Shown here: piece by piece, positions 24,467 through 57,096 of the stretch
Numbering within the stretch: position 1 is the stretch's first letter
Layout of the letters: each line of letters starts with the position of its first letter
Origin: Christiangramia portivictoriae DSM 23547
Lineage (GTDB): Bacteria; Bacteroidota; Bacteroidia; Flavobacteriales; Flavobacteriaceae
Direction: 5' to 3'
NCBI RefSeq assembly: GCF_000423045.1
Contig: NZ_KE383972.1
Location: 515,670-579,669 of the forward strand
Length of the DNA stretch: 64,000 nt
The notes under the pieces: generated by a model
What the model was told of the DNA's origin: nothing
Seen by the model: the letters and a program-made list of their open reading frames with translations, nothing else
The model's database searches: none
Made by a program: the position numbers and the translations under genes

Positions 24467-24528
24467 TCACAAGTGTTTTAAAACTGAAAATTTTAAGAGC
24501 AAGTTCGATAACCTGCTGAGTCTCGAAA

Positions 24529-24822
24529 TTAATCAATTTCTTCGTAATCGATATATTCCCCTACTTTTTTATCCTTATTAGATGTAACTTTAGGTTTCTT
24601 ACCAATAGTTGTAGACTTTGAGCTCGATCTTTTTGAAGTCGTGCCGCCAAATTGCTGACCGAACTGTTGTCCGAATTGTTGTTCGAACTTTCTGCCCATT
24701 TTCCGCATGAAATATTTCAGAATCATAGGGCCAAAAAATCGAATGATTATTTTAAATCCGAAATATATAAGTAGTACAACGAGAACAAATTTCAATACTC
24801 CAGATAAGGATGCTTCTAACAT
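24529..24822 (-). CDS. DUF4834 family small membrane protein
   Basis: A 97-residue protein: one membrane helix (about 9-35), a basic stretch FMRKMGRKFEQ, three QQFG repeats (about 47-58), then a Ser/Lys-rich linker ending in the conserved acidic VGEYIDYEEID. This is the DUF4834 layout seen in Bacteroidota; function unknown. A -7 box at 24837-24844 (TACTTTTG leftward) lies 15 bases upstream, so the leader is very short. Divergent from the outer membrane protein gene. Confidence 0.8.
   Translation of the reverse strand: MLEASLSGVLKFVLVVLLIYFGFKIIIRFFGPMILKYFMRKMGRKFEQQFGQQFGQQFGGTTSKRSSSKSTTIGKKPKVTSNKDKKVGEYIDYEEID
24648..24686 (-). repeat. Short tandem repeat encoding QQFG
   Basis: Three imperfect 12-base units (caaattgctgac, cgaactgttgtc, cgaattgttgtt) inside the DUF4834 gene, encoding repeated Gln-Gln-Phe-Gly. 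Copy number changes would stay in frame. Confidence 0.65.
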
Positions 24823-24836
24823 TCTAATGCTTTTGA

Positions 24837-24907
24837 CAAAAGTAAAAATTAGCGTTCAGATTGAAAGCCGCTTCATCAATAAAATTATAATAAAACTTAT
24901 ATCTTTG
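24837..24907. promoter_or_regulatory. Divergent promoter boxes
   Basis: TACTTTTG on the minus strand (24837-24844) serves the DUF4834 gene and TATCTTTG on the plus strand (24900-24907) serves the gene starting at 24929. Both match TAnnTTTG. Confidence 0.55.
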
Positions 24908-24928
24908 ATACAATTAACCCCGCAAGTT

Positions 24929-25894
24929 ATGCGCACTACATGCATCTACAGCCTGTTTTTTCTACTAGCAGGCTTCAGTGTTCAGGCACAATATACTGAA
25001 ACCATAAACTCCAATCGCCCGGGACAGTCTCAGGGTGCTTTTTCAGTAGGAACCAATGTAATACAGCTCGAATCTGGCTTCTATCTCGGGAATGATATGC
25101 ACGAGGGTCTTGGAGCAGACATCGATATCTGGGGTGTGGATTATCAACTTCGTTATGGGTTGCTAATGGAAAACCTGGAGATCAATCTTACCGGTGCGTT
25201 CGAGAATCAGGATATTGTTCGGAATTTTCTTGGCAATACAGTAGAAACTTCAGGAAGAAATTTCAAATCCAATACGCTTGGTCTTAAATATTTATTCTAC
25301 GATCCATATAAGAATATGGAAGAGGAGAAACCAAACATTCGAAGCTGGTACGCAAACAGAAAATTCAAATGGAAAACCCTGATCCCTGCAGTTTCGATCT
25401 ACGCCGGGGCGAACTTTGCGTTTGGTGACAATCCTTACCTGTTCGAAGGAGAGAATAAATTTAGCCCGAAGGTAGCTCTTATCACGCAAAACAATTGGGG
25501 TCGGTGGGTATTGGTGATGAACATTATTGCCGATAAATTAACTGAAGAATACAGAAGCTATAATGGAATTGCAACTGTAACTCATACGGTCACTCCTAAC
25601 TTTGCGATCTTTGGAGAATACCAAGGAATTAAAAGCGACCTATATGCAGATGATCTTCTGCGTGGCGGTGGTGCTTATCTTGTAGGCGATAATTTGCAAT
25701 TTGATGTTAGCGGACTAGTCAATTTTAAGAATACCCCCTCCCGTTGGCAGGTTGCCCTAGGAGTTTCCTACAGATTGGATCTTCATAAAGTTGATGAATA
25801 CCTGGAGGAGTCTAATGAAGGCAATAAGCGCCGTGCCAGAAGCAAGAAACTAAGCCGGGAAGCCGAAGAAGATTCAGAAGAAAATGATCAATAA
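24929..25894 (+). CDS. Outer-membrane transporter-like protein (phenol MetA-pathway family)
   Basis: A 321-residue exported protein with a signal peptide ending AGFSVQAQ. The body starts with the family-typical TINSNRPGQSQGAFSVGTN and then alternates amphipathic strands ending in aromatic residues (VALGVSYRLDLHK), as in outer-membrane beta barrels of the Phenol_MetA_deg/transporter family. The C-terminus is an acidic-basic tail (RRARSKKLSREAEEDSEEN). Substrate unknown. Start chosen at ATG 24929: the upstream extension lacks a signal peptide at its own start and crosses the promoter box at 24900. Confidence 0.78.
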   Translation: MRTTCIYSLFFLLAGFSVQAQYTETINSNRPGQSQGAFSVGTNVIQLESGFYLGNDMHEGLGADIDIWGVDYQLRYGLLMENLEINLTGAFENQDIVRNFLGNTVETSGRNFKSNTLGLKYLFYDPYKNMEEEKPNIRSWYANRKFKWKTLIPAVSIYAGANFAFGDNPYLFEGENKFSPKVALITQNNWGRWVLVMNIIADKLTEEYRSYNGIATVTHTVTPNFAIFGEYQGIKSDLYADDLLRGGGAYLVGDNLQFDVSGLVNFKNTPSRWQVALGVSYRLDLHKVDEYLEESNEGNKRRARSKKLSREAEEDSEENDQ

Positions 25895-25899
25895 ATAAT

Positions 25900-25922
25900 A
25901 AAGGCCGGAGTTACCGGCCTTT
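25900..25922. terminator. Bidirectional terminator
   Basis: AAAGGCCGG (25900-25908) and CCGGCCTTT (25914-25922) form a perfect 9-bp stem with a 5-base loop between convergent genes. Confidence 0.88.
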
Positions 25923-25949
25923 ATTGTTAATTATATGCTTACTGGGAGC

Positions 25950-27212
25950 TTATTTGTTGGACATTGCGGCTTCTACTGAAGCAGAAAGTCTTTTATAAGT
26001 TCCATTCTCAAGTCTTTCTCTAATCGCGGAAAAAGCTGTAAGTGTTTCTTCTACATCTTGCAAAGTGTGCGTAGCTGTTGGAATCATTCTTAAAAGAATA
26101 AGACCTTTAGGAATCACTGGATAAACCACAATTGAACAGAATATCCCATGATTCTCACGTAAATCTTTTACAAGCGCCATTGCCTCCGGAATGCTTCCTT
26201 TAAGATACACCGGCGTTACACAACTTTGAGTAGTTCCTATATCAAAGCCGTTATCCTTCAATCCATTTTGCAAGGCATTTACATTCTCCCAAAGTTTCTC
26301 TTTAAGCTCAGGCATGGTTCTAAGCATATCCAGACGCTTTAAGGCACCTACAACCAGCTGCATTTGCAGTGATTTAGCAAACATTTGAGACCTAAGGTTA
26401 TATTTTAGATAATCGATAATTTCTTTATCACCAGCGATAAATGCACCAGTACTTGCTAAAGACTTAGCAAAAGTTGCAAAATATACATCAATATCATCCT
26501 GCACACCCTGCTCCTCACCTGCTCCGGCTCCGGTTTTTCCAAGCGTCCCGAAACCATGGGCGTCATCTACGAAAAGTCTAAAATTGTATTTCTTCTTCAG
26601 TTCAACGATTTCCTTCAGTTTACCCTGCTCACCTCGCATTCCAAAAACACCTTCAGAAATAAGCAATATACCACCACCAGTTTGCTCAGCGATCTTGGTT
26701 GCGCGCTGCAGGTTCTTCTCGATACTTTCCATATCGTTATGCTTATAGGTGAATCGCTGTCCAAGATGTAAACGAACCCCGTCTATGATACATGCGTGAG
26801 CATCTACATCATAAACGATAACATCCTGCTTTGATACCAAAGCATCTATGGTAGAAACCATTCCCTGGTATCCAAAGTTCAACAGGTAAGCGGCCTGTTT
26901 GTTAACAAAAGATGCAAGTTCATCCTGCAACTTTTCGTGAAGATCTGTATGACCACTCATCATTCTGGCTCCCATTGGGTACGCCGATCCATAATCTGCA
27001 GCTGCCTGGGCATCTACTTTACGAACTTCAGGATGATTGGCAAGACCAAGGTAATCGTTAATACTCCAGGTAATTACATTCTTACCTCGAAACTTCATTC
27101 TATTGGAAATAGGCCCTTCCAGTTTAGGAAATACAAAATATCCTTCTGCCTGCTCCGCCCATTTTCCTAACGGTCCTTTATCTTTATAAATCTTATCAAA
27201 TAAATCCTTCAT
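25950..27212 (-). CDS. Alpha-oxoamine synthase family PLP enzyme, probable cysteate C-acyltransferase
   Basis: A 420-residue fold-type I PLP enzyme of the family of serine palmitoyltransferase, KBL and BioF. Seen: N-terminal SINDYLGLANHP, MGARMMSGHTDLHEKLQ, the PLP-binding VDDAHGFGTLG and the Schiff-base lysine in FATFAKSLAST. It is longer than typical bacterial KBL/BioF and has the N-terminal KDLFDKIYKDKGPLGKWAEQ extension that I associate with flavobacterial cysteate acyltransferases making 3-ketocapnine. The next gene upstream is a cysteine-synthase-like PLP protein, which could supply cysteate. Sulfonolipid synthesis is therefore the favoured role; sphingolipid synthesis or an amino-acid role remains possible. 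Confidence 0.85.
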   Translation of the reverse strand: MKDLFDKIYKDKGPLGKWAEQAEGYFVFPKLEGPISNRMKFRGKNVITWSINDYLGLANHPEVRKVDAQAAADYGSAYPMGARMMSGHTDLHEKLQDELASFVNKQAAYLLNFGYQGMVSTIDALVSKQDVIVYDVDAHACIIDGVRLHLGQRFTYKHNDMESIEKNLQRATKIAEQTGGGILLISEGVFGMRGEQGKLKEIVELKKKYNFRLFVDDAHGFGTLGKTGAGAGEEQGVQDDIDVYFATFAKSLASTGAFIAGDKEIIDYLKYNLRSQMFAKSLQMQLVVGALKRLDMLRTMPELKEKLWENVNALQNGLKDNGFDIGTTQSCVTPVYLKGSIPEAMALVKDLRENHGIFCSIVVYPVIPKGLILLRMIPTATHTLQDVEETLTAFSAIRERLENGTYKRLSASVEAAMSNK

Positions 27213-27301
27213 CGGTCATTTTTTAGACGAGCCGCAAAAATACTGAAAATTGGCCCAATTTTACAAGGTAAATTATTAACATCGAAATCTAATAAAAACA
27301 G

Positions 27302-27328
27302 AAGCATCCTGCAAAGAACAGGATGCTT
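27302..27328 (-). terminator. Terminator between the two PLP enzyme genes
   Basis: AAGCATCCTG and CAGGATGCTT (27302-27311 and 27319-27328) form a perfect 10-bp stem with a 7-base loop; leftward it is followed by CTGTTTTTATT. It implies separate transcription units for the two neighbours. Confidence 0.8.
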
Positions 27329-27350
27329 TTTGTTAATAATTGTTAATCTT

Positions 27351-28391
27351 TTATTTGATGATCTCTATGGATTGAGATTTTGAATCCTTCTGAGTATCGA
27401 GAAAACCCTGCTCATTCATCCAGTCATCGCTATAGATCTTACTCATATACCTGGAACCATGATCTGGAAAGATCAGAACTACATTGGAGTTTGCATTAAA
27501 CTCTCCTTCTTCCTGATATTGTTTTAATCCCTGCATGGCAGCTCCACTTGTATAACCTACGAACAGACCTTCAGTCCTGGCAAGTTCTCTGGCAGTATGT
27601 GCTGCATCTTCGTCACTAACCTTCATAAATTTATCGATCTTATCAAAATCTGTAGCAGATGGAATAAGATTTTTACCAAGTCCTTCTATTCTGTATGGAT
27701 AGATCTCATCTTTATCGAACTCTTTGGTTTCGTGATACTTTTTAAGAACGGAGCCAAATGCGTCAATTCCGAGGATTTTAATATCCGGATTTTGAGACTT
27801 CAAAAATCTTGCGGTTCCAGAGATAGTACCACCGGTACCGCTACAAGCCACAAGGTGCGTAATAGTTCCTTCGGTTTGTTTCCAAATCTCTGGCCCTGTA
27901 GAATTAAAATGAGCATCTATATTCAGTTCATTAAAGTACTGATTGATATAAACAGAACCTTTAATTTCAGAATGAAGTCTTTTCGCTACTTCGTAATAAG
28001 ACCGCGGGTCATCTGCAGGAACGTTTGCCGGGCAAACATGAACCTTCGCACCCATGGTCTTCAGCATATCGATCTTGTCTTTAGATGACTTTGAACTTAC
28101 AGCAAGGATACAATCGTAACCTTTTATGCAACTTACCATGGCAATACTAAAACCTGTATTTCCTGAAGTAGTTTCAATGATAGTATCACCGGGTTTCAAG
28201 ATTCCTTTTCTTTCGGCTTCTTCAATAATATATAAAGCGATCCTATCCTTCGAAGAATGGCCTGGATTAAAAGCTTCTATCTTAGCGGAGTACTTTCCGG
28301 GGAAATCTTTAGTGATTTTATTTAAGTTGATCAACGGGGTGTTTCCAACTAGTTGCAATACGTTATCGTAAACATGCAAATCTTCTCTCAT
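27351..28391 (-). CDS. Cysteine-synthase-like fold-type II PLP enzyme, candidate cysteate synthase
   Basis: A 346-residue member of the cysteine synthase/cystathionine beta-synthase family. Visible: [10 protein letters not shown], the PLP lysine in [12 protein letters not shown] (the usual VKDR is SKDR here), the phosphate-binding substrate loop [11 protein letters not shown], the [13 protein letters not shown] loop and a C-terminal [13 protein letters not shown]. There is no CBS domain. It performs beta-replacement on an activated serine; the nucleophile could be sulfide or, given the neighbouring oxoamine synthase, sulfite to give cysteate. About 140 bases separate it from that gene, with a terminator between them. 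Confidence 0.85.
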
Positions 28392-28461
28392 AAAATGATC
28401 TTTAAATAAAACGCGTTCTCACACATTTTACTAATCGACAAATTTAAGCCAAATTTTTTAA

Positions 28462-30588
28462 TTACTCCTTAATCCCTTCAAGATCCAGTAAAAATGCGTA
28501 CTCTTCAGCTACTTCCTTTAAAGCTTCAAACCTTCCCGAAGCACCACCATGGCCGGCATCCATATTGGTATGTAATAGCAAAATGTTCCTGTCTGTCTTC
28601 AACTCCCTGAGTTTGGCAACCCATTTAGCAGGTTCCCAGTATTGCACCTGGCTATCATGCAAACCTGTAGTAACCAGCATATTTGGATAATCCTGCGCCA
28701 CCACGTTATCATAAGGAGAGTATGATTTCATATAATCATAATAAGATTTTTCATTAGGATTACCCCACTCATCATATTCGCCCGTAGTAAGTGGAATGCT
28801 ATCATCCAGCATCGTGGTAATAACATCTACAAACGGTACGGCGGCTATTACCCCGTTATATAGGTTTGGAGCCATGTTCACGACGGCCCCCATTAGTAAA
28901 CCTCCGGCTGAACCACCCATCGCGTACAAATGATTCGAAGAAGTGTAATTCTCCTGTATGAGAAATTCAGAAACATCTATAAAATCTGTAAACGTATTTT
29001 TCTTCTGAAAAAGTTTTCCATTCTCATACCATTCCCTTCCCAGATATTCACCACCACGAATATGTGCAATGGCATAAATAAATCCGCGATCCAGCAAACT
29101 GAGCCGTACGGTGGAGAAATATGGATCTATCGTAGAGCCGTAAGAGCCGTAAGCATATTGTAAAAGAGGATTTTTTTGATCCTTCTGAAGTCCTTTCTTG
29201 TATACCAGAGAGACGGGAATACTTGTTCCATCTTTAGCGGTAGCCCAAATACGTTCGGAAGTATAATTATTCTTATCAAATTTACCACCCAGTACTTCCT
29301 GTTCTTTTAAAACTTTCTTGTCTCCGTTCTTCATGTTATATTCCACGACTGAAGTTGGAGTAGTTAGACTATTATAGGTATACCTCAACAAATCTGTATC
29401 AAAATCTGGATTTATGGACGTGTAAGCTGTATAAGTCTCATTATCAAAAGGAATATAGTATTCTTTATTTCCTTCCCATTCAATAATCCTTATTTTGTTG
29501 AGACCATTTGTTCTTTCACTTACCACAAGGTATTTCTGAAAGATATCTATATCCTCCAATAAAAAATCCTTTCGATGAGGGATCACATCTTCCCAGTGCT
29601 CTTTTTCTGTTTGAGCTAGCGAAGTCTTCATCAATTTGAAGTTGGTGGCATCATCCTTATTGGTTACTATATAAAAGTGGTCCTTGTAATGTGCAATGCT
29701 ATATTCAAGTCCTCGCTCACGAGGCTGGAAAACTTTAAATTCTTGATCTGGCGTATTAGCATCAAGAATACGATACTCGGTAGTCAAGGTACTATGAGAA
29801 CCTATAATGATAAATTCCCTGGATTTGGATTTGTAAACATAGGAATTGAATGTTTCGTCCTCCTCTTCATAAATAAGCTCATCGGTTTCAGGATCGGTTC
29901 CCAGAATGTGCTTATATATTCTGAAAGATCTTAAAGTTTGAGGATCCTTTTTGGTATAATAGAGCGTTTTATTATCGTTCGCCCAGGTAGAACCACCTGT
30001 AGTATTTTCAATGTTTTCATCATATATCTCACCGGTCTCCAGGTTTTTGATCCTGATGGTATACTGTCTCCTGCTTACCGTGTCGGTTCCAAATGCCACC
30101 ATCGTATTGTCTGGCGAGACATTTAGACCTCCAAGACTATAGTATTCGAATTCCTTCGCCATGTCATTGACGTTGAACATCACTTCTTCATCTGCCTCGA
30201 GAGTTCCTTTTTTCCGACTATATATCGGGTAATCATATCCCTTCTCGAACCTGGTGATATACCAGTATCCATTGAGCTTATAAGGAACTGACTCATCATC
30301 TTCCTTGATGCGGCCCTTCATCTCCAAAAATAATTTCTCCTGAAATTCTTTGGTATGGGAAGTCATTTGATCATTATAGCTGTTTTCAGCATTTAAATAA
30401 TCCAGAACTTCCTGGTCTTCCCGCTGATTCATCCAGAAATAATTATCGATACGCACATCGCCATGCTTCTCTAATCTTTTCTCAACCTTTTTGGCGATTG
30501 GAGCCTGTAATTTCTTTTCCAAATCATTGTTATTTTGAGCGCCTGCAAATGTAATGCATCCTAACAGAATAAAGAATAGTCTTTTCAT
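28462..30588 (-). CDS. Oligopeptidase B-like S9 family peptidase
   Basis: A 708-residue serine peptidase with an N-terminal seven-bladed propeller (to about 430) and a C-terminal hydrolase domain. Catalytic residues: Ser in MGGSAGGLLMG, Asp in TTGLHDSQVQYWEP, His in DAGHGGASGRF. ARG-type basic specificity is suggested by the oligopeptidase B motif DDSIPLTTGEYDEWGNP. Begins with a signal peptide (MKRLFFILLGCITFAGAQ), so it is periplasmic or envelope-located, unlike cytosolic E. coli PtrB. The ATG at 30588 was preferred to an upstream extension of 42 codons that would overlap the ybaB gene and lose the signal peptide. Confidence 0.92.
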   Translation of the reverse strand: MKRLFFILLGCITFAGAQNNNDLEKKLQAPIAKKVEKRLEKHGDVRIDNYFWMNQREDQEVLDYLNAENSYNDQMTSHTKEFQEKLFLEMKGRIKEDDESVPYKLNGYWYITRFEKGYDYPIYSRKKGTLEADEEVMFNVNDMAKEFEYYSLGGLNVSPDNTMVAFGTDTVSRRQYTIRIKNLETGEIYDENIENTTGGSTWANDNKTLYYTKKDPQTLRSFRIYKHILGTDPETDELIYEEEDETFNSYVYKSKSREFIIIGSHSTLTTEYRILDANTPDQEFKVFQPRERGLEYSIAHYKDHFYIVTNKDDATNFKLMKTSLAQTEKEHWEDVIPHRKDFLLEDIDIFQKYLVVSERTNGLNKIRIIEWEGNKEYYIPFDNETYTAYTSINPDFDTDLLRYTYNSLTTPTSVVEYNMKNGDKKVLKEQEVLGGKFDKNNYTSERIWATAKDGTSIPVSLVYKKGLQKDQKNPLLQYAYGSYGSTIDPYFSTVRLSLLDRGFIYAIAHIRGGEYLGREWYENGKLFQKKNTFTDFIDVSEFLIQENYTSSNHLYAMGGSAGGLLMGAVVNMAPNLYNGVIAAVPFVDVITTMLDDSIPLTTGEYDEWGNPNEKSYYDYMKSYSPYDNVVAQDYPNMLVTTGLHDSQVQYWEPAKWVAKLRELKTDRNILLLHTNMDAGHGGASGRFEALKEVAEEYAFLLDLEGIKE

Positions 30589-41979: not shown

Positions 41980-44900
41980 CTATTTCCTAGCAAAGTGTTT
42001 TTTATACTTTAGGTAAGAAATGGTACCCAGAATTGCTACCGCACCTAAAGTGTAATATATAAAGGTTGGAGTAATAACCTTGTCTCCACTGGCATAAGAA
42101 TGCAGCCCGCTTAAATAAAAGTTCACACCAAAATAGGTCATCATGATACTTGCGAAAGCTACAATCGCCATTAAGTTAAATAGCCATCTGCTTCTAAGCC
42201 CTGGAACGAGTCTCATATGGATCACAAATGCATAAACCATGATGCTTATTAACGCCCAGGTTTCTTTTGGATCCCAACCCCAGTAACGTCCCCAGCTTTC
42301 ATTCGCCCACTGGCCACCTAAGAAGTTTCCAATAGTTAACATGACTAAACCAACGGTTAGGGCCATTTCAGTAATGATGGTGATCTCTTTTATATTAATG
42401 TCCATCTTCTTCTTATTCTTCTCATTGGTAAGAATCATGAGAAGCAGGGAAACCACTCCCAGGATCATTCCAAGTGTAAACGGACCATAACTACCAACAA
42501 TAACAGAAACATGAATCATTAACCAATAGGAATTAAGCACCGGTTGCAGATTGGCAATTGCCGGATCCATCCAGTTCCAGTGTGCGATCATAAGGATCAT
42601 GGAAGCTACAAAAGCGGTAGACGCGATCGTAAGATTTGATTTTCTACCAAATGCCAGACCAAAGAACATAGTCGCCCAGGCTACGTAGATCATCGACTCA
42701 TAGGCATCACTCCAGGGAGCATGACCAGAAATATACCACCTGGCTGCGAGTCCTGCCGTATGCACTATAAAAAGTACGATAATCGTAGCGGCTCCGGCGT
42801 AGATAAGACCTCGTATCGCTTTGTTATCTTTAAAGATCTGCACAATCACAAAAACGAGCATGACCAGTCCTGCCAGCATGTACATCCAGAACAGGTTTCT
42901 AAATACGTCATATTTGTTGTAAAGAATCTCAGCATTTACTTTGTCTTCTGAAGGCATTACCTCGCCTCCAAACTTTTCCTGAAAACTCTGAATACTTTCC
43001 AGGTACTGATTTGCTTTTTCGTAATCGCTCGTTTCCCGTGCTGTTTTAAGCGCACTCATGTACAGCGGAAGGATTTGCTTCGTATAAACCGAATCCATTC
43101 CCGTGAAACTAGCTTCTCCAAGCTCAGGGTAAGAGACCCACTTGTTATTTTCATCTTCAGGTACAGGAAAAATTTTGAGTACTTTACCCTGAACCGCCTG
43201 GTACAAAAGGTTTACTTTTTTATCGGTTTCAATAAAATCCTTTTGAAATTTATTCGGAACTGCAGCTTTATAAGCACCTTCAAGATACGGGGACAGTTTG
43301 TAACCACCTTTTTCATCGAAGAAATCCATCAGGGCCAGGTACTTTCTACCTTCCTCCACATCCAGGATCTGGTGCAGACTGTCATTCTTTTTCTCTACAT
43401 AAATCACCTGCGCCTGGTACCAGAAGGCAGGATTTTCAGTAATGGAAACCAATACCTGGTCTGAACTTAGACCGGCGTACGTATCGCTTTTGCTTAGTTT
43501 ACGAAGTAATTCTGAAGAATACGTATTAGCAGGTTTCATTCTACCACCTGCATCCTGGATAATTAATCTTCCAAATTTATCGGCGTGCTCCTCTTTTACC
43601 GCGTTAGAAACAATGATGCTATCGATCTGCTGCTTGGAATTCTGATTATGTGCATGATCGTCATTTTGGGTAAATCCAACTGAAGACAGGAACATAAGCG
43701 CCAAAACTGCCAGTGCTTTTTTCTTATCCTTGATCTTTTCCAGCATAACCTTTAAATTCCCGAAGCGAGAACCCTTATCAAACAATATCCACATTAGTCC
43801 AAAGTAAAGTAAGAAATAACCTATGTAGGTAATCCAGGTTCCCCAGAAATCACGGTTTATAGAAAGCACCGTGCCCTTTTCATCGGGATCAAAACTTGAT
43901 TGAAAAAACCTGTAACCTTGATGATCCAGTACATGGTTCATATATATAGAATATGGTTCAGGCTCTTCTCCTTCTTCAACGATTTCCACCTCACTTCTAA
44001 AACTCGCGTAACCAGGTGTTGCTCTATCGGCAGTTCCGGGATATTTTTCTGCAATGAAATCATTCAGTTTCAAGGCAAACGGAAGTTCTTTTTCTATACT
44101 TCCGTAGTTAACAAAGACTTCGAGTCCGTCAAAATTAATCGCCTGTGGATCTGCTACAGTTCCCTGTCCGCCCAATAAAGTAATGGTTTCAGTCTTTCCA
44201 TTGGCTGTAATATCCAGGGTTACCGCATCAAGATCCTGCTTTGTTTTTGGATTGGTAGGCACTACATCATATTCCCCTGTAACAATCGGTTCCGGAATCA
44301 CGAACTGCATGCTACCAATATTATACAGCGACCTCAGCATAAGAGTTTGCGTGGAATCACTAACCAATGTCCCCTGCTGTTGATCTGCCATTCGCATATA
44401 TGTTCCTTCAAACGGGGAGTCTATCTGGTATTCTCCATCTTCAGTAACCTGAATATTAATGGCACCATCCTGCGGACTATTAAGCGTAAACAAGGTGTTA
44501 TGTATATTGCTTACTTCGCCCTGCTTAAGGTAATGATCGTGGCGCGAACCATCCCCAGCTTCCACGATCTTAAGATAATTCTCACCGTCCTCTGTAGGCA
44601 CAAGCGTCTCTTCAGCGCCGTGAATAAAGTTTGTCACTTCAAATTTTACTGGTGTTCCATTAAAATCTGTATCCAGTACATAATCGTTCTCCACTTCCGG
44701 CCCAAACAGTACATCCTCCTGTAAAACCCTTCTTCGTGGCTCACCGTCTATCTCTCCATCGATAAAAAAAGTAAGATAAGTTTCATAGGTCATGAACTTG
44801 TTCGTAGTCTCTCCTTCGCGAATAGGCATCACTCCTTCATAGCTTATATACCTTGTTACAAAGGCACCAATCAAAATGAGAATAAAGGAAAGGTGTAACA

Positions 44901-45141
44901 AAAGACTGCTCCATTTTTCTTTTTCATGAAGCTTGTATCGCTTGATATTACCAATAAAATTGATGAGAAGAAATAACATGATCCCTTCGAACCACCAGGT
45001 ATTGTAAATAAGAATTCTTGCCGTTTCGATACTGTACCAGCTTTCTATAAAAGTTCCCATGGCCATGGCAATTGCAAAGATGATAAACAGGACGGCCATT
45101 ATTCGGGTAGAAAAAAGGATAGAGGCTATTTTTTTCTGCAT
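41980..45141 (-). CDS. Fused ResB/CcsA cytochrome c biogenesis protein
   Basis: A 1053-residue membrane protein fusing both System II components. The N-terminal ResB-like part has three early helices (AVLFIIFAIAMAMGTFIE), a large periplasmic domain to about 430 and a further helix. The C-terminal CcsA part has about eight helices, the haem-handling WANESWGRYWGWDPKETWAL and histidines in the helices. It exports and attaches haem to CxxCH motifs. The ATG at 45141 is used; a TTG nine codons earlier lies in the -7 box (45166-45173). Large insert regions with no cysteine motif separate the two halves. Confidence 0.92.
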   Translation of the reverse strand: MQKKIASILFSTRIMAVLFIIFAIAMAMGTFIESWYSIETARILIYNTWWFEGIMLFLLINFIGNIKRYKLHEKEKWSSLLLHLSFILILIGAFVTRYISYEGVMPIREGETTNKFMTYETYLTFFIDGEIDGEPRRRVLQEDVLFGPEVENDYVLDTDFNGTPVKFEVTNFIHGAEETLVPTEDGENYLKIVEAGDGSRHDHYLKQGEVSNIHNTLFTLNSPQDGAINIQVTEDGEYQIDSPFEGTYMRMADQQQGTLVSDSTQTLMLRSLYNIGSMQFVIPEPIVTGEYDVVPTNPKTKQDLDAVTLDITANGKTETITLLGGQGTVADPQAINFDGLEVFVNYGSIEKELPFALKLNDFIAEKYPGTADRATPGYASFRSEVEIVEEGEEPEPYSIYMNHVLDHQGYRFFQSSFDPDEKGTVLSINRDFWGTWITYIGYFLLYFGLMWILFDKGSRFGNLKVMLEKIKDKKKALAVLALMFLSSVGFTQNDDHAHNQNSKQQIDSIIVSNAVKEEHADKFGRLIIQDAGGRMKPANTYSSELLRKLSKSDTYAGLSSDQVLVSITENPAFWYQAQVIYVEKKNDSLHQILDVEEGRKYLALMDFFDEKGGYKLSPYLEGAYKAAVPNKFQKDFIETDKKVNLLYQAVQGKVLKIFPVPEDENNKWVSYPELGEASFTGMDSVYTKQILPLYMSALKTARETSDYEKANQYLESIQSFQEKFGGEVMPSEDKVNAEILYNKYDVFRNLFWMYMLAGLVMLVFVIVQIFKDNKAIRGLIYAGAATIIVLFIVHTAGLAARWYISGHAPWSDAYESMIYVAWATMFFGLAFGRKSNLTIASTAFVASMILMIAHWNWMDPAIANLQPVLNSYWLMIHVSVIVGSYGPFTLGMILGVVSLLLMILTNEKNKKKMDINIKEITIITEMALTVGLVMLTIGNFLGGQWANESWGRYWGWDPKETWALISIMVYAFVIHMRLVPGLRSRWLFNLMAIVAFASIMMTYFGVNFYLSGLHSYASGDKVITPTFIYYTLGAVAILGTISYLKYKKHFARK

Positions 45142-45165
45142 GAGAAAGTGTCGTTTTAACGGCTG

Positions 45166-45189
45166 CAAATTTAACGATTTTTTATCGTT
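45166..45189 (-). promoter_or_regulatory. Promoter of the ResB/CcsA gene with an inverted repeat
   Basis: TAAATTTG read leftward (45166-45173) is a -7 box. Directly upstream lies AACGAT (45173-45178)/ATCGTT (45184-45189), a 6-bp inverted repeat with a 5-base spacer. Its position between the promoter elements suits an operator. Confidence 0.45.
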
Positions 45190-45267: not shown

Positions 45268-46029
45268 ATGATAAAAGTAGTGATCCTGGGTGCGGGCAAT
45301 GTTGGAATTCACCTGTACCAAAGCTTCAAATTAACTCCTGAAGTTGATGTTATTCAATTGTTTAGCCGAAATCCATCCAGGCTGGACTTTATAGGTAACA
45401 CTACTGAAGTTATTAGTGATTACGAGCAACTGGCTGAAGCAGATATTTACATACTTTCGGTGCGGGATTCGGCAATTACTGAAGTCGCACAGAATTTAAA
45501 AGCTTCGAAAGCCCTGGTGGTTCATACCTCCGGAAGTGTAGCTATGGAAGATTTGTCTATGCTGGATAACTTCGGAATATTTTATCCGTTGCAAACCTTC
45601 AGTAAAAATAAAGAGGTAAATTTTTCAGAAATACCTTTATGCATAGAAGCCAATTCTGAAGAAAACCTTATTAAACTGAAGGAGCTGGGATCGTTGATTT
45701 CAACCAAAGTTTTCGAAGTAAATTCAGAGCAGCGACGAGCTTTGCATCTTTCCGCAGTGATCGTCAATAATTTTACAAATCACCTATTCACATTAGCGGC
45801 AGATTACTGCAATGAAAATGAATTGCCATTTGACATTTTAAGACCGCTTATCCAGGAAACTTTTGAAAAGATTCAGGATCTGCCGCCCTATGACGCTCAA
45901 ACTGGTCCTGCCCTTAGAAATGACATTAACACGATCGAGACTCATTTGCAGATGCTCAATGAAGACCGACAAAAAATTTATAAAACCCTAACCGACTCTA
46001 TTCAGAAAACACATGGAAAAAAATTATAA
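45268..46029 (+). CDS. Rossmann-fold / DUF2520 protein
   Basis: A 253-residue protein: N-terminal NAD(P)-binding fold (VVILGAGNVGIHLYQSF, SVRDSAITEVA) and a helical C-terminal DUF2520 domain (RRALHLSAVIVNNFTNHLFTLA). The organisation is that of 6-phosphogluconate dehydrogenase-like oxidoreductases; the substrate is unknown. First gene of a rightward operon: it overlaps the KdsC gene by 17 bases. Confidence 0.88.
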   Translation: MIKVVILGAGNVGIHLYQSFKLTPEVDVIQLFSRNPSRLDFIGNTTEVISDYEQLAEADIYILSVRDSAITEVAQNLKASKALVVHTSGSVAMEDLSMLDNFGIFYPLQTFSKNKEVNFSEIPLCIEANSEENLIKLKELGSLISTKVFEVNSEQRRALHLSAVIVNNFTNHLFTLAADYCNENELPFDILRPLIQETFEKIQDLPPYDAQTGPALRNDINTIETHLQMLNEDRQKIYKTLTDSIQKTHGKKL

Positions 46030-46528
46030 AGAATATCTAAACCAGATCACGACCTTCGTATTTGATGTTGATGGCGTCCTTACCGATGGCTCCTTGCAGG
46101 TATCAACGAAAGGAGAACTTTTAAGAACGATGAACACAAAAGACGGTTATGCCATGAAGATGGCGTTGCGTGCAGGGTTTACCGTTTGTATTATTAGTGG
46201 CGGTAAAAACGAAGGAGTACGTGAACGACTTCGTGGACTGGGTATTACAGATATTTACCTTGGAGTAGATGATAAAGTGGAGCAAATGGATGAGTTTTTA
46301 GACGTCTATGATATTAAACCAGAGCAGGTATTATATATGGGTGACGATATTCCAGATTACTATCCAATGAAAATAGTAGGACTGCCTTGCTGCCCTCAGG
46401 ATGCCGTACCAGAACTCAAGGAAATTTCACTTTACGTATCACACAAAAATGGCGGGGAAGGCTGTGTTCGTGATGTGATCGAGCAGGTTATGAAAGTTCA
46501 GGGTAAATGGATGGAAAAGACTTCTTAA
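46013..46528 (+). CDS. kdsC: KdsC-type HAD phosphatase (Kdo 8-phosphate phosphatase)
   Basis: A 171-residue HAD hydrolase without a cap insertion, as in KdsC. Motif I is VFDVDGVLTDG, motif II is IISGGKNEG, and motif IV is YMGDDIPDYY. It removes phosphate from Kdo 8-phosphate before CMP activation by KdsB, encoded in this window at 58390. Overlaps the upstream gene and is followed by the prenyltransferase gene without a gap. Assignment as kdsC versus a general sugar phosphatase rests on family fit. Confidence 0.85.
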   Translation: MEKNYKEYLNQITTFVFDVDGVLTDGSLQVSTKGELLRTMNTKDGYAMKMALRAGFTVCIISGGKNEGVRERLRGLGITDIYLGVDDKVEQMDEFLDVYDIKPEQVLYMGDDIPDYYPMKIVGLPCCPQDAVPELKEISLYVSHKNGGEGCVRDVIEQVMKVQGKWMEKTS

Positions 46529-47443
46529 ATGCTGAATTACGTTAAACTGGTAAGACCGGGAAATCTACTATTCATTGCCCTTACCATGTATCTTATAAAA
46601 TATGGTTTGTTCGAACCATTTGGAGTGGCGATCACCTTAAACCTCTTTGGATTTTCGATGTTAGTTCTGGCCGTAGTCTCGGTTGCTGCCTCCGGCTACG
46701 TGATTAACGACATTTTTGATGTAGAAGCAGATCAAAAGAACAAACCTTCCAAAACCTATGTTCAGTCTGGCATTTCAGAAAAAAGTGCCTACAGCATGTT
46801 CTTCTTATTGAGCATCATTGGTGTAGGATTAGGGTTTTATGTATCGAACATGATTGGTGTACCGGGATTTTCAGCATTCTTTATATTTGGCTCTGCCATT
46901 TTATACCTCTACAACTCCCAGTTTCAACAAAGTGTTTTGATTGGCAATATCCTGGTAAGTCTTATCGTAGGATTGATTCCGGTAGGTGTTGGCTTATACG
47001 ATCTGTTACCGGCGATCACCCCTCAAAACCAACCCACTCAGTCCACGATCTTTTCAATATTGATCGATTATTCCATATTTGCATTCCTGGTGAATCTGCT
47101 TCGTGAGATAGTAAAAGATCAGGAAGATATCGATGGTGATTACAATGCAGGCTACAAAACCCTTCCTATCGTGCTTGGCAAAAAACGTACAAATCAGTTA
47201 CTTTTTTTATTGGGTCTGGCTCCCATAGGTTTCCTGATCTATTATGTTTATGAATATCTCTTCGGAAATACGGCGGCAGTGCTATACGCCCTCTTTCTAT
47301 TGCTGGCGCCCTTGTTGTTTTTTGAAGTTAATATCTGGACAGCGTCAAGAAAATCTGAGTACTCAAGGTTAAGCACACTATTAAAAGCTGTTTTGTTTTT
47401 TGGTCTTTTATCCATAGGACTATTACAATTCATAATTCTATAA
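46529..47443 (+). CDS. UbiA family prenyltransferase
   Basis: A 304-residue protein with about nine membrane helices. The two metal-binding motifs are NDIFDVEADQKNK (about 68) and DQEDIDGDYNAGYKTLP (about 196). In Bacteroidota such genes are annotated as geranylgeranylglycerol-phosphate transferase-like or UbiA-type enzymes, but the acceptor is uncertain. Sits in an operon with kdsC and maf, three bases before maf. Confidence 0.85.
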   Translation: MLNYVKLVRPGNLLFIALTMYLIKYGLFEPFGVAITLNLFGFSMLVLAVVSVAASGYVINDIFDVEADQKNKPSKTYVQSGISEKSAYSMFFLLSIIGVGLGFYVSNMIGVPGFSAFFIFGSAILYLYNSQFQQSVLIGNILVSLIVGLIPVGVGLYDLLPAITPQNQPTQSTIFSILIDYSIFAFLVNLLREIVKDQEDIDGDYNAGYKTLPIVLGKKRTNQLLFLLGLAPIGFLIYYVYEYLFGNTAAVLYALFLLLAPLLFFEVNIWTASRKSEYSRLSTLLKAVLFFGLLSIGLLQFIIL

Positions 47444-47445
47444 AC

Positions 47446-48042
47446 ATGATTCAGAATTTGCTTAAAGACCACGAAATCATTCTTGCTTCGGGTTCACCAC
47501 GAAGACAGAAATTCTTTGAAGATCTCCTAATTCCTGTCACCATAGATGTTCGTTCTGTAAAAGAGATCTATCCTGAACATCTCGAAGGCCAGGAGATCAC
47601 AGATTATCTTTCAAAATTAAAAGCTGAAGCATTTACCAATCTTAAGGATCATCAAATCCTGATTACCAGTGACACCATTGTTTATGCTGAAGAAAAAGCT
47701 TTGGGAAAACCTAAAGATCATGACCACGCGGTGGAGATGATTCGAATGCTTTCTGGCAAAGAACACGAAGTGATCACTTCTGTATGTTTTACTTATAAAA
47801 ACCGGCAGGACATACTCAATTACACCACCAAAGTAAAGTTTGCAGACCTTAGTGAAGAAGAGATCCAATTCTACGTCACTAATTATAAACCATTTGATAA
47901 AGCTGGTGGCTATGCCATCCAGGAATGGATAGGTTTAATAGGAATAGAATCCATCAGCGGTAGCTATTTTAACGTGGTAGGCTTACCTACAAATCTGGTC
48001 TACAAGAGCTTAATAAACATATTGAAAGAGGAAAATTCGTAA
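47446..48042 (+). CDS. Maf-like nucleotide pyrophosphatase
   Basis: A 198-residue Maf protein, standard length. Signature ILASGSPRRQKFFEDL, the catalytic DTIVYAEEKALGKPKD and GGYAIQEWIGLIG are present. It hydrolyses non-canonical or dTTP/UTP nucleotides and is linked to septum inhibition in Bacillus. It is followed by a lipoprotein gene, sometimes mislabelled with the same product name. Confidence 0.93.
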   Translation: MIQNLLKDHEIILASGSPRRQKFFEDLLIPVTIDVRSVKEIYPEHLEGQEITDYLSKLKAEAFTNLKDHQILITSDTIVYAEEKALGKPKDHDHAVEMIRMLSGKEHEVITSVCFTYKNRQDILNYTTKVKFADLSEEEIQFYVTNYKPFDKAGGYAIQEWIGLIGIESISGSYFNVVGLPTNLVYKSLINILKEENS

Positions 48043-48057
48043 ATTGTCATCAATACG

Positions 48058-48948
48058 ATGAAACGACTCCTTACAATTTTCACATTTTCGATACTTATAA
48101 TCTCCTGTACAGACCGGGAATTTAATCGAAACGATTTCAGTTTAACTGAAGACTTTAAAGATTACTGGTACTCGGGCAAGGCTGAAATAACTACCTATGA
48201 CCTCGAACAATCCAGGTATGGTGAGCTGCGAAAAGGCACAGCAACCCTTATATATGTTACTGAAGATTTTTCGATTACAGAACAGGTAAAAGCAGATGAT
48301 GCAACATTAAGTAAGGCATCGGTCCTCAAATTGAACAGCACTAAAAATTTTAATACTGGCATCTACCCTTATAGTATCATGCAAAGTAGCTTCTTTCCTC
48401 TTAACGGGAATGATCATGCCCTGAAGATTGCCGCCTCAGTTCAGGAATGGTGTGGCCAGGTATACATGCAATTGAACAACCGGGAAGATTTTGACATTAG
48501 CAGTCACTCCTATTTTGCGGGTGAAGCAGACCAGTATTTGAAATTAAATCCAATCAATCTTGAAAATGAGATCTGGAATCTATTAAGAATTGATCTCGAT
48601 CGGGTGCCGGTAGGATCTTTTAAAATGCTTCCCTCGTTTGAGTTTATAAGACTTCAGCACATTGCAGTGCGTCCCTTTGAAGCTGAAGGACAATTTATTA
48701 CCAGTGAACGATATCATATATACCAGTTGTTTTATCCAGAATTGAACAGAACACTGAAAATTTACCTCAATAAATCCGCACCTTATACCATAGAAAGATG
48801 GGAGGAATCAGCTCCTGTGGGAAATGGTGAACAGTCTGAAATTTTAACGACTACGGCCACCAAAAAAGCACGATTAAGAACCGATTACTGGAATAAAAAT
48901 TCGAATAAAGATTTACATTTGCGCGAGAAATTAGAACTTGATCAATGA
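48058..48948 (+). CDS. Lipoprotein of unknown function
   Basis: A 296-residue protein with a lipoprotein signal: MKRLLTIFTFSILIISCTDRE, lipobox IISC at Cys 17. The mature part is mostly beta strand (GKAEITTYDLEQSRYGE, GTATLIYVTEDF, ALKIAASVQEWCGQVYMQL) and ends with charged segments. I recognise no enzymatic motif. It lies in an operon between maf and the MscS gene, whose start overlaps its stop by 4 bases. Anchoring to the inner face of the outer membrane is likely. Confidence 0.82.
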   Translation: MKRLLTIFTFSILIISCTDREFNRNDFSLTEDFKDYWYSGKAEITTYDLEQSRYGELRKGTATLIYVTEDFSITEQVKADDATLSKASVLKLNSTKNFNTGIYPYSIMQSSFFPLNGNDHALKIAASVQEWCGQVYMQLNNREDFDISSHSYFAGEADQYLKLNPINLENEIWNLLRIDLDRVPVGSFKMLPSFEFIRLQHIAVRPFEAEGQFITSERYHIYQLFYPELNRTLKIYLNKSAPYTIERWEESAPVGNGEQSEILTTTATKKARLRTDYWNKNSNKDLHLREKLELDQ

Positions 48949-49484
48949 AGGAATTGCTTCTCACCTATCGCTATGAATTACTGTATTCTCTCGCAGTACT
49001 TATCATTTTATTGCTAATACAATTTTTACTGAGAACGGCCGCAAACAAAGTTGGTCGTAGAGGAGAGATCAACATCACCCGCACCAGGTTGATGTTTAAA
49101 TACATTAATATTCTTATCATATTAATTGCAGCTTTTCTCCTGGCTCTTGCCTGGGGTGTAGGAATTACAGATCTCTCCTTGATATTCTCATCTGTATTTG
49201 CAGTAATAGGAGTAGCTTTATTCGCCATCTGGTCGATCCTGAGTAATGTTACCAGTGGGATCATCCTGTTTTTTTCCTTTCCCTATAAGATTGGTGACAC
49301 CATCAAGATCCATGACAAAGACCTGGATATTGAAGCTGAGATCGAAGATATCAAAGCTTTTCACCTTCATCTACGCACCCGTGAGGGCGAACTTGTGACC
49401 TATCCCAATAACCTTATTCTTCAAAAAGCGGTTACCTTAAAACATCGGTTAGATGGCCGGGATGAAGGAAAAGACGCTCTCTAG
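48945..49484 (+). CDS. Small MscS-family mechanosensitive channel protein
   Basis: A 179-residue protein with three membrane helices (about 10-30, 50-70, 76-98) and the start of the MscS beta domain (PYKIGDTIKIHDK, EGELVTYPNNLILQKAV). It lacks the large cytosolic cage of E. coli MscS, so it is a short version. It probably releases solutes on osmotic downshock. Last gene of the operon; overlaps the lipoprotein gene by 4 bases. Confidence 0.88.
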   Translation: MKELLLTYRYELLYSLAVLIILLLIQFLLRTAANKVGRRGEINITRTRLMFKYINILIILIAAFLLALAWGVGITDLSLIFSSVFAVIGVALFAIWSILSNVTSGIILFFSFPYKIGDTIKIHDKDLDIEAEIEDIKAFHLHLRTREGELVTYPNNLILQKAVTLKHRLDGRDEGKDAL

Positions 49485-56397: not shown

Positions 56398-57096
56398 ATG
56401 AAAAAGAATATAGTCATTATAGGAGGAAGCAGCGGTATAGGAAATGAAATATCCGAAATGCTGAAGGAAGATCATGAAGTTTATGCACTTTCCAGATCGC
56501 AAGGAGATCTGGATACAGATAAGGTAAAACATTTTGAGTTTGACGTATTGGAAAATGATATTTCAGAAATTCATCTCCCGGAGCAAATTGACGGATTGGT
56601 TTATTGTCCTGGTTCCATTGATCTGAAACCATTCAAAATGATGAAGCCCGAAAGTTTTGAAAAGGAAATGAATCTTAATTTCTTCGGACTTGTACGCGCT
56701 GTTCACGGATTATTACCTAACTTAAAAAAATCTGACCAGGCTAGTCTCGTTTTCTTTAGCACAGTCGCAGTAAAAGTTGGAATGCCTTTTCATACCAGCG
56801 TTGCAGCAGCGAAAGGTGCGATTGAAGGATTTGCCAAATCACTGGCAGCCGAGTACGCTCCAAATTTTAGAGTTAATGTAATCGCTCCTTCTTTAACAGA
56901 TACACCACTGGCCGGTAAATTACTTTCCAGTGATGATAAGAAAAAGAAAATGGATCAACGCCACCCATTAAAAAGAGTTGGAGAAGCAAAAGATATTGCT
57001 AATCTTGCCGGCTTCCTGCTCACCGAAAAAAGTTCCTGGATCACCGGGCAGGTTTTAGGAGTAGACGGCGGATTATCTACATTAAACATTAATTAA
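56398..57096 (+). CDS. SDR family protein lacking the catalytic tyrosine
   Basis: A 232-residue short-chain dehydrogenase-like protein. The nucleotide motif is IIGGSSGIGNEIS. The catalytic serine is present in FFSTVAVK, but at the YxxxK position the sequence reads HTSVAAAKGAIEG, so the lysine is kept and the tyrosine is replaced by valine, with a nearby His. C-terminal GFLLTEKSSWITGQVLGVDGG is intact. It may bind cofactor without usual catalysis or use another base. Stop and photolyase ATG share a base (TAATG). Confidence 0.85.
   Translation: MKKNIVIIGGSSGIGNEISEMLKEDHEVYALSRSQGDLDTDKVKHFEFDVLENDISEIHLPEQIDGLVYCPGSIDLKPFKMMKPESFEKEMNLNFFGLVRAVHGLLPNLKKSDQASLVFFSTVAVKVGMPFHTSVAAAKGAIEGFAKSLAAEYAPNFRVNVIAPSLTDTPLAGKLLSSDDKKKKMDQRHPLKRVGEAKDIANLAGFLLTEKSSWITGQVLGVDGGLSTLNIN

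Follow-up and report, generated by a model that had tools for sequence, protein, structure and literature searches.

Does a pair of minus-strand genes in the window (the whole 64,000-nucleotide stretch of DNA analysed here) encode enzymes of sulfonolipid (capnine) synthesis, and are the two genes transcribed together or apart? The first-pass annotation had placed a 420-residue alpha-oxoamine synthase beside a cysteine-synthase-like enzyme, and both open reading frames were found exactly, at 25950-27212 (-) (420 aa) and 27351-28391 (-) (346 aa), with families that fit this description. For both proteins, PDB homologues span almost the entire sequence. The source genome (G000) measures 3.27 Mb in eight contigs.

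Sequence comparison indicates that the pair is very probably capA-capB of the sulfonolipid (capnine) pathway. The novelty of this assignment is low, as the pair is already known and represents a typical case of a pathway that was described in 2021-2022; the capA-capB system is ordinary for Flavobacteriaceae. The additions made here are modest and consist of comparative support for separate transcription of capA and capB, together with several neighbourhood leads. The evidence presented below consists of the family assignments, the catalytic and diagnostic residues, the conserved side-by-side position of the genes, and recurrent terminator and promoter signals.

The 420-residue protein groups with cysteate fatty acyltransferases

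The 420-aa protein is the predicted cysteate fatty acyltransferase (gene capB, also sulA or cfat), with K250 as the catalytic lysine and K280 as the diagnostic one. Its top PDB chain was 28eh, deposited as 'Cysteate-C-fatty acyltransferase' (E 4.9e-214, 73% identity, full length), followed by the SulA chain of Alistipes finegoldii, 7u7h (E 5.9e-174), with 61% identity over 416 residues. Other members of the superfamily were more distant, the serine palmitoyltransferase (SPT) 3a2b at 34% identity and the KBL and BioF-like protein of the same genome at 32% and 29%, respectively. In a tree of 18 rows, the window CapB, SulA and 28eh formed a clade with support of 100/100, apart from SPT, KBL and BioF; the outgroup branches of this tree were long.

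These data bear on the main alternative identity, namely that the 420-aa protein is an SPT, KBL or BioF and its neighbour a cysteine synthase or cystathionine beta-synthase (CBS), both serving ordinary sphingolipid or amino acid metabolism. The superfamilies are common to all of these enzymes and the corresponding models do match: the SPT model NF047600 gave 305.5 bits, the KBL (glycine C-acetyltransferase) model 286 bits and the BioF (8-amino-7-oxononanoate synthase) model 277 bits on the 420-aa protein, and the CBS model gave 385 bits on the 346-aa protein. However, these scores lie far under the curated cut-offs of 640, 460, 426 and 510 bits, respectively, and the genome already has a separate KBL, BioF-like protein and CysM. 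Moreover, the tree separates the 420-aa protein from SPT, KBL and BioF, and K280 stands in place of the alanine of SPT, the N of KBL and the T of BioF. Hence, the alternative is highly improbable, and the SPT, KBL, BioF, cysteine synthase and CBS identities were rejected on the basis of the curated cut-offs, the tree and the residues.

The lysine is informative in the CapB reading, as Lys281 is reported to separate SulA from SPT, which has alanine there, and the K281A variant to be inactive (Radka et al., PMC9304779). K280 of the window protein corresponds to SulA K281. K stood at this position in all 101 CapB rows, drawn from the window, from 80 named loci and from a further 20 regions, while the KBL of the same genome has N there and the BioF-like protein T. 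Equivalents of SulA N53, H140, D217, H220, K251 and R376 were likewise all present in the window CapB; since they also occur in the KBL and BioF rows, these residues test membership of the superfamily only. The NCBIfam scan of the 420-aa protein gave no CapB equivalog match, and the CapB assignment therefore rests on identity, tree and residues.

The genome contains a single CapB match at 1e-80. Among the examined loci, blastp found no alpha-oxoamine synthases of this genome beyond CapB, the KBL, which is above its cut-off, and the BioF-like protein; neither of the latter two reached the SPT cut-off. Four other genomes (G206, G080, G134 and G187) carry, beside the main protein, a second CapB-like protein with 49-59% identity to that of the window, which possibly acts on another substrate.

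The 346-residue protein passes the cysteate synthase model

The 346-aa protein is a predicted fold-type II PLP enzyme, the cysteate synthase encoded by capA. On the curated NCBIfam equivalog NF053679 (cysteate synthase CapA) it scores 650 bits and so passes the cut-off of 600, and the CBS, CysK, CysM and SbnA models of the same collection match it under their cut-offs. The paralogues in the same genome all fall below the NF053679 cut-off, with 462 bits for a CBS-like protein (53% identical to the window CapA), 209 bits for CysM, which passes the CysM cut-off, and 163 bits for an SbnA-like protein. The nearest PDB chain to CapA, 9k2p_A (E 1.1e-159), was deposited under an uninformative name.

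The first-pass annotation had further pointed to an altered SKDR loop in the active site. By our own, unpublished description, the CapA loop reads PGxSxKDR, with a small or polar residue, not V, before the PLP lysine. The window loop has this form, PGHSSKDR, in which S46-S47-K48-D49-R50 includes the PLP lysine K48. The alteration is real and typical of CapA, since 78 of 79 CapA relatives have S, T, A or N just before the lysine, whereas the genome's own CysM and CBS-like protein have V; the SbnA-like protein has L. The loop is not diagnostic by itself, because mycobacterial Rv1077, labelled as a cystathionine beta-synthase, carries PGGSSKDR, one of the 79 relatives has V, and V, I or M occurs in 4 of 8 more distant CapA-like neighbours of capB. 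Its use as sole proof of a cysteate synthase was rejected on the same grounds, as both Rv1077 and CapA relatives break the rule. The proposal that the pair makes cysteate and 3-ketocapnine is nevertheless supported at the level of sequence, by the NF053679 score for CapA and by identity, tree and lysine for CapB.

Conservation of the pair

Among the best 80 of 590 named CapB loci, where the closest protein to the window CapB was that of Gramella jeungdoensis (97% identity), capA lay directly upstream of capB on the same strand in 79; the remaining locus (L095) had no capA within it. A sample of 246 genomes of the order was surveyed as well; 126 of them had a CapB match at 1e-80, and CapA exceeded the NF053679 cut-off in 40 and reached at least 500 bits in 79. 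All 79 genomes with CapA of at least 500 bits also had CapB; by subtraction, 47 CapB genomes were without such a CapA. The two genes were within 1.5 kb on the same strand in 53 of the 79 genomes, including two (L176 and L177) with another gene between them. This close pairing was found in 0 of 22 assemblies of genus g2, in 16 of 18 from the rest of the window's family and in 37 of 39 from outside the family.

Twenty regions were selected for a wide gap, for genes lying apart or for the absence of a strong CapA. A CapA-like gene stood by capB in eight of them, an archaeal-type cysteate synthase homologue in two, and neither in ten. The two archaeal-type genes, both from family f2 (L178:4532-5860 (-) and L179:4227-5561 (-)), encode distant homologues that match TIGR03844 at about 130 bits, short of its cut-off of 324.9, and lie beside capB with no strong CapA. 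Their position suggests an apparent replacement of CapA by an archaeal-type cysteate synthase, like the one reported for Alistipes.

Two further arrangements around capB were observed. In L183, L184 and L185, which belong to three families, capB adjoins a common run of five genes (cl5 to cl9) and has no neighbouring CapA. A protein of about 350 aa is encoded near capB in three families (L178:9061-10110, L187:3155-4201, L188:3562-4608 and L189:3526-4584), directly after capB in L189; the four copies are 49-90% identical, and the two that were scanned match the glyoxalase/dioxygenase superfamily.

Terminator and promoter signals between capA and capB

The gap between capA and capB in the window measures 138 bp; in 79 related loci it ranged from a 4-base overlap to 503 bases, with a median of 152. 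The terminator that had been proposed here was located at 27302-27328 (-), as an intrinsic-terminator-like hairpin 22 nt past the capA stop with 11 pairs (5 G-C), a loop of 5 and a T-rich tract after it. Taken alone, this hairpin is within chance (4 hairpins in 24500-30000 versus 4.3 expected in shuffles). Its recurrence is beyond chance: terminator-like hairpins on the gene strand were present in 37 of the 79 related gaps. Thirty dinucleotide-shuffled sets gave 1.1 on average and never more than 3, while coding stretches matched in length gave 3 of 79 and the reverse strand of the gaps 6 of 79. The scan of the window for RNA elements gave no Rfam match at gathering thresholds. A second terminator-like hairpin, in minus orientation at 25897-25925, follows capB within a gap of 55 bp, and the frame beyond it at 24707-25894 (+), convergent to capB, matches Phenol_MetA_deg.

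The -7 element of Bacteroidota promoters has the consensus TAnnTTTG, which TATTTTTG in the window gap appears to fit. It forms part of a putative capB promoter, TTG-N21-TATTTTTG, at 27235-27266 (-), in which the -7 element begins 30 nt before the start codon. Of the 71 gaps of at least 100 bp, 45 had TAnnTTTG no more than 60 nt ahead of capB, versus 4.2 expected (maximum 11) in shuffles, and 25 had both this element and a hairpin. A TTG placed 17-23 nt upstream of TAnnTTTG was present in only 11 of 71, versus 0.7 expected in mononucleotide shuffles, and the window is one further case. A possible -7 element for capA itself, TAAATTTG at 28439-28446 (-), is weak, with no TTG at the right spacing.

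The recurrent hairpins and -7 elements imply that capA and capB likely form two transcription units in the window, with a tight operon in some relatives; a gap of at most 40 bp in 8 of the 79 relatives points to co-transcription there. The same short gaps, together with the 42 of 79 related gaps in which no terminator was detected, lend something to the competing reading of the window as a single operon, in which the hairpin would take part in mRNA 3'-end formation or processing, with readthrough, and would not serve separate tuning. The shared strand, the gap of 138 bp and the conserved gene order also agree with such an operon, but the TAnnTTTG element before capB in 45 of 71 gaps and the co-occurrence of both signals in 25 of them do not, and neither does genus g2, where none of the 22 assemblies places the genes within 1.5 kb of each other and co-transcription of capA and capB is thus not required. 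Overall, we consider the single operon somewhat unlikely. Separate transcription finds its support in the comparison of relatives, from the hairpins (37/79) and the -7 elements (45/71), and the separate tuning suggested in the first-pass annotation would build on it. That capA and capB are deliberately uncoupled in many Flavobacteriaceae, with lineages retaining different terminator sequences at roughly one position and a promoter close to capB, so that cysteate supply is controlled apart from lipid commitment, perhaps owing to some other use of cysteate, is in our view unlikely.

Predicted pathway and candidate reductase

In the pathway that we propose, CapA would combine sulfite with an activated serine, which is O-phosphoserine in the characterised relatives, to form L-cysteate. 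CapB, as a PLP-dependent alpha-oxoamine synthase, would then condense cysteate with a fatty acyl thioester to give 3-ketocapnine and CO2; the acyl donor may be acyl-ACP, which is preferred by the studied homologue SulA. A short-chain reductase (SDR) encoded elsewhere in the genome would convert 3-ketocapnine to capnine, which would in turn be N-acylated. The two genes would act as separate transcription units, with a terminator after capA and a promoter before capB. This scheme follows the one described in PMC10191378, where CapA sulfonates phosphoserine to cysteate, CapB uses acyl-ACP to form 3-ketocapnine and CapC yields capnine, followed by N-acylation. Substrates, product, outer-membrane location and a contribution to gliding are taken from relatives and would apply to the window pair by analogy.

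No reductase gene adjoins the window pair, whose flanking genes match Phenol_MetA_deg and prolyl oligopeptidase. Such genes are found in clusters of other lineages: in 4 of the 20 selected regions (L173, L175, L176 and L177), an SDR gene of about 285 aa lies between capA and capB. The SDR frame of L175 is short, and a cupin-family gene is also present between capA and capB there; in L182 an SDR lies beside capB without CapA. These cluster SDRs are likely the 3-ketocapnine reductase CapC.

A profile built from four of these cluster SDRs was used to search the source genome. Among 16 SDR matches, the best was G000:C2:485005-485796 (L155:1477-2295, +), which aligned over its full length with 134.9 bits (E 4e-39), the next scoring 110.5 bits. 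The protein shares 27-32% identity with the four cluster SDRs of other lineages. Its top NCBIfam match is the 3-ketodihydrosphingosine reductase KdsR, at 266 bits and thus under the cut-off of 400, although no SPT was found among the examined loci; on the same model the cluster SDR of L176 gave 149 bits, and KdsR was not its top match. When 12 of the 23 PF00106 matches of the genome were scanned against NCBIfam (best 25 families each), a 3-ketosphinganine-type top match appeared only in G000:C2:485005-485796. These results make this gene a candidate 3-ketocapnine reductase and are suggestive, not proof. An SDR within the window, at 56398-57096, was rejected as the reductase, with 41.1 bits on the cluster SDR model, far under the best match, and no NCBIfam cut-off reached.

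Gliding, lipids and other features of the window

The GldM and SprA models were matched above cut-off in the window's genome, and 14 control genomes gave no match to them. Gramella is described as gliding, with amino lipids in two type strains that are listed as unidentified and not named as sulfonolipids (PMC4891872). Among the papers listed in a literature search, the passages on Gramella report no sulfonolipid in it, which is not evidence of absence. Gliding, such amino lipids and the cap pair together make capnine-based lipids a concrete candidate for the amino-lipid spots. In a further genus, Leeuwenhoekiella polynyae (L093) has the capA-capB pair, and sulfobacin A is given as a putative dereplicated component of an extract of its congener L. 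parthenopeia (PMC9859067). At the level of genes, the pair speaks for a capacity to make sulfonolipids in a Gramella-like marine bacterium. The survey extends this by showing how tightly CapA and CapB are associated, and by its apparent cysteate synthase swaps and the reductases between capA and capB in several lineages.

Elsewhere in the window, a close run of six same-strand open reading frames occupies 45268-49484 (+) and includes a UbiA-type prenyltransferase at 46529-47443. Next to it, at 41980-45168 (-), a frame of 1062 aa matches ResB-like and cytochrome c assembly families and is apparently a fused cytochrome c maturation protein.

Comparison with known systems

One of the closest known systems is the CapA-CapB-CapC pathway of Capnocytophaga ochracea and Ornithobacterium rhinotracheale (PMC10191378, PMC12927429), for which CapA and CapB homologues are reported side by side, as in the window; the C. 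ochracea proteins have the consecutive accessions ACU93374.1 and ACU93375.1 (PMC12927429). Compared with this pathway, the window pair has no adjoining reductase gene. In the window's gap, a terminator-like hairpin and a putative promoter stand between the genes.

The same two enzymes as in the window are represented by Cys1 and CFAT of Chryseobacterium gleum (PMC11211663) and by the CFAT Fjoh_2419 of Flavobacterium johnsoniae (PMC9304779), deletion of which is cited in the latter source as having abolished sulfonolipids. Within the window's family, the genes lie apart in all 22 assemblies of genus g2, unlike the adjacent window pair. Alistipes differs in the first step, having, according to PMC10191378, a homologue of the archaeal cysteate synthase in place of CapA. 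In the second step, SulA of Alistipes finegoldii (7u7h, PMC9304779) matches the window CapB closely, with the 61% identity given above and the same active-site residues, including the diagnostic lysine.
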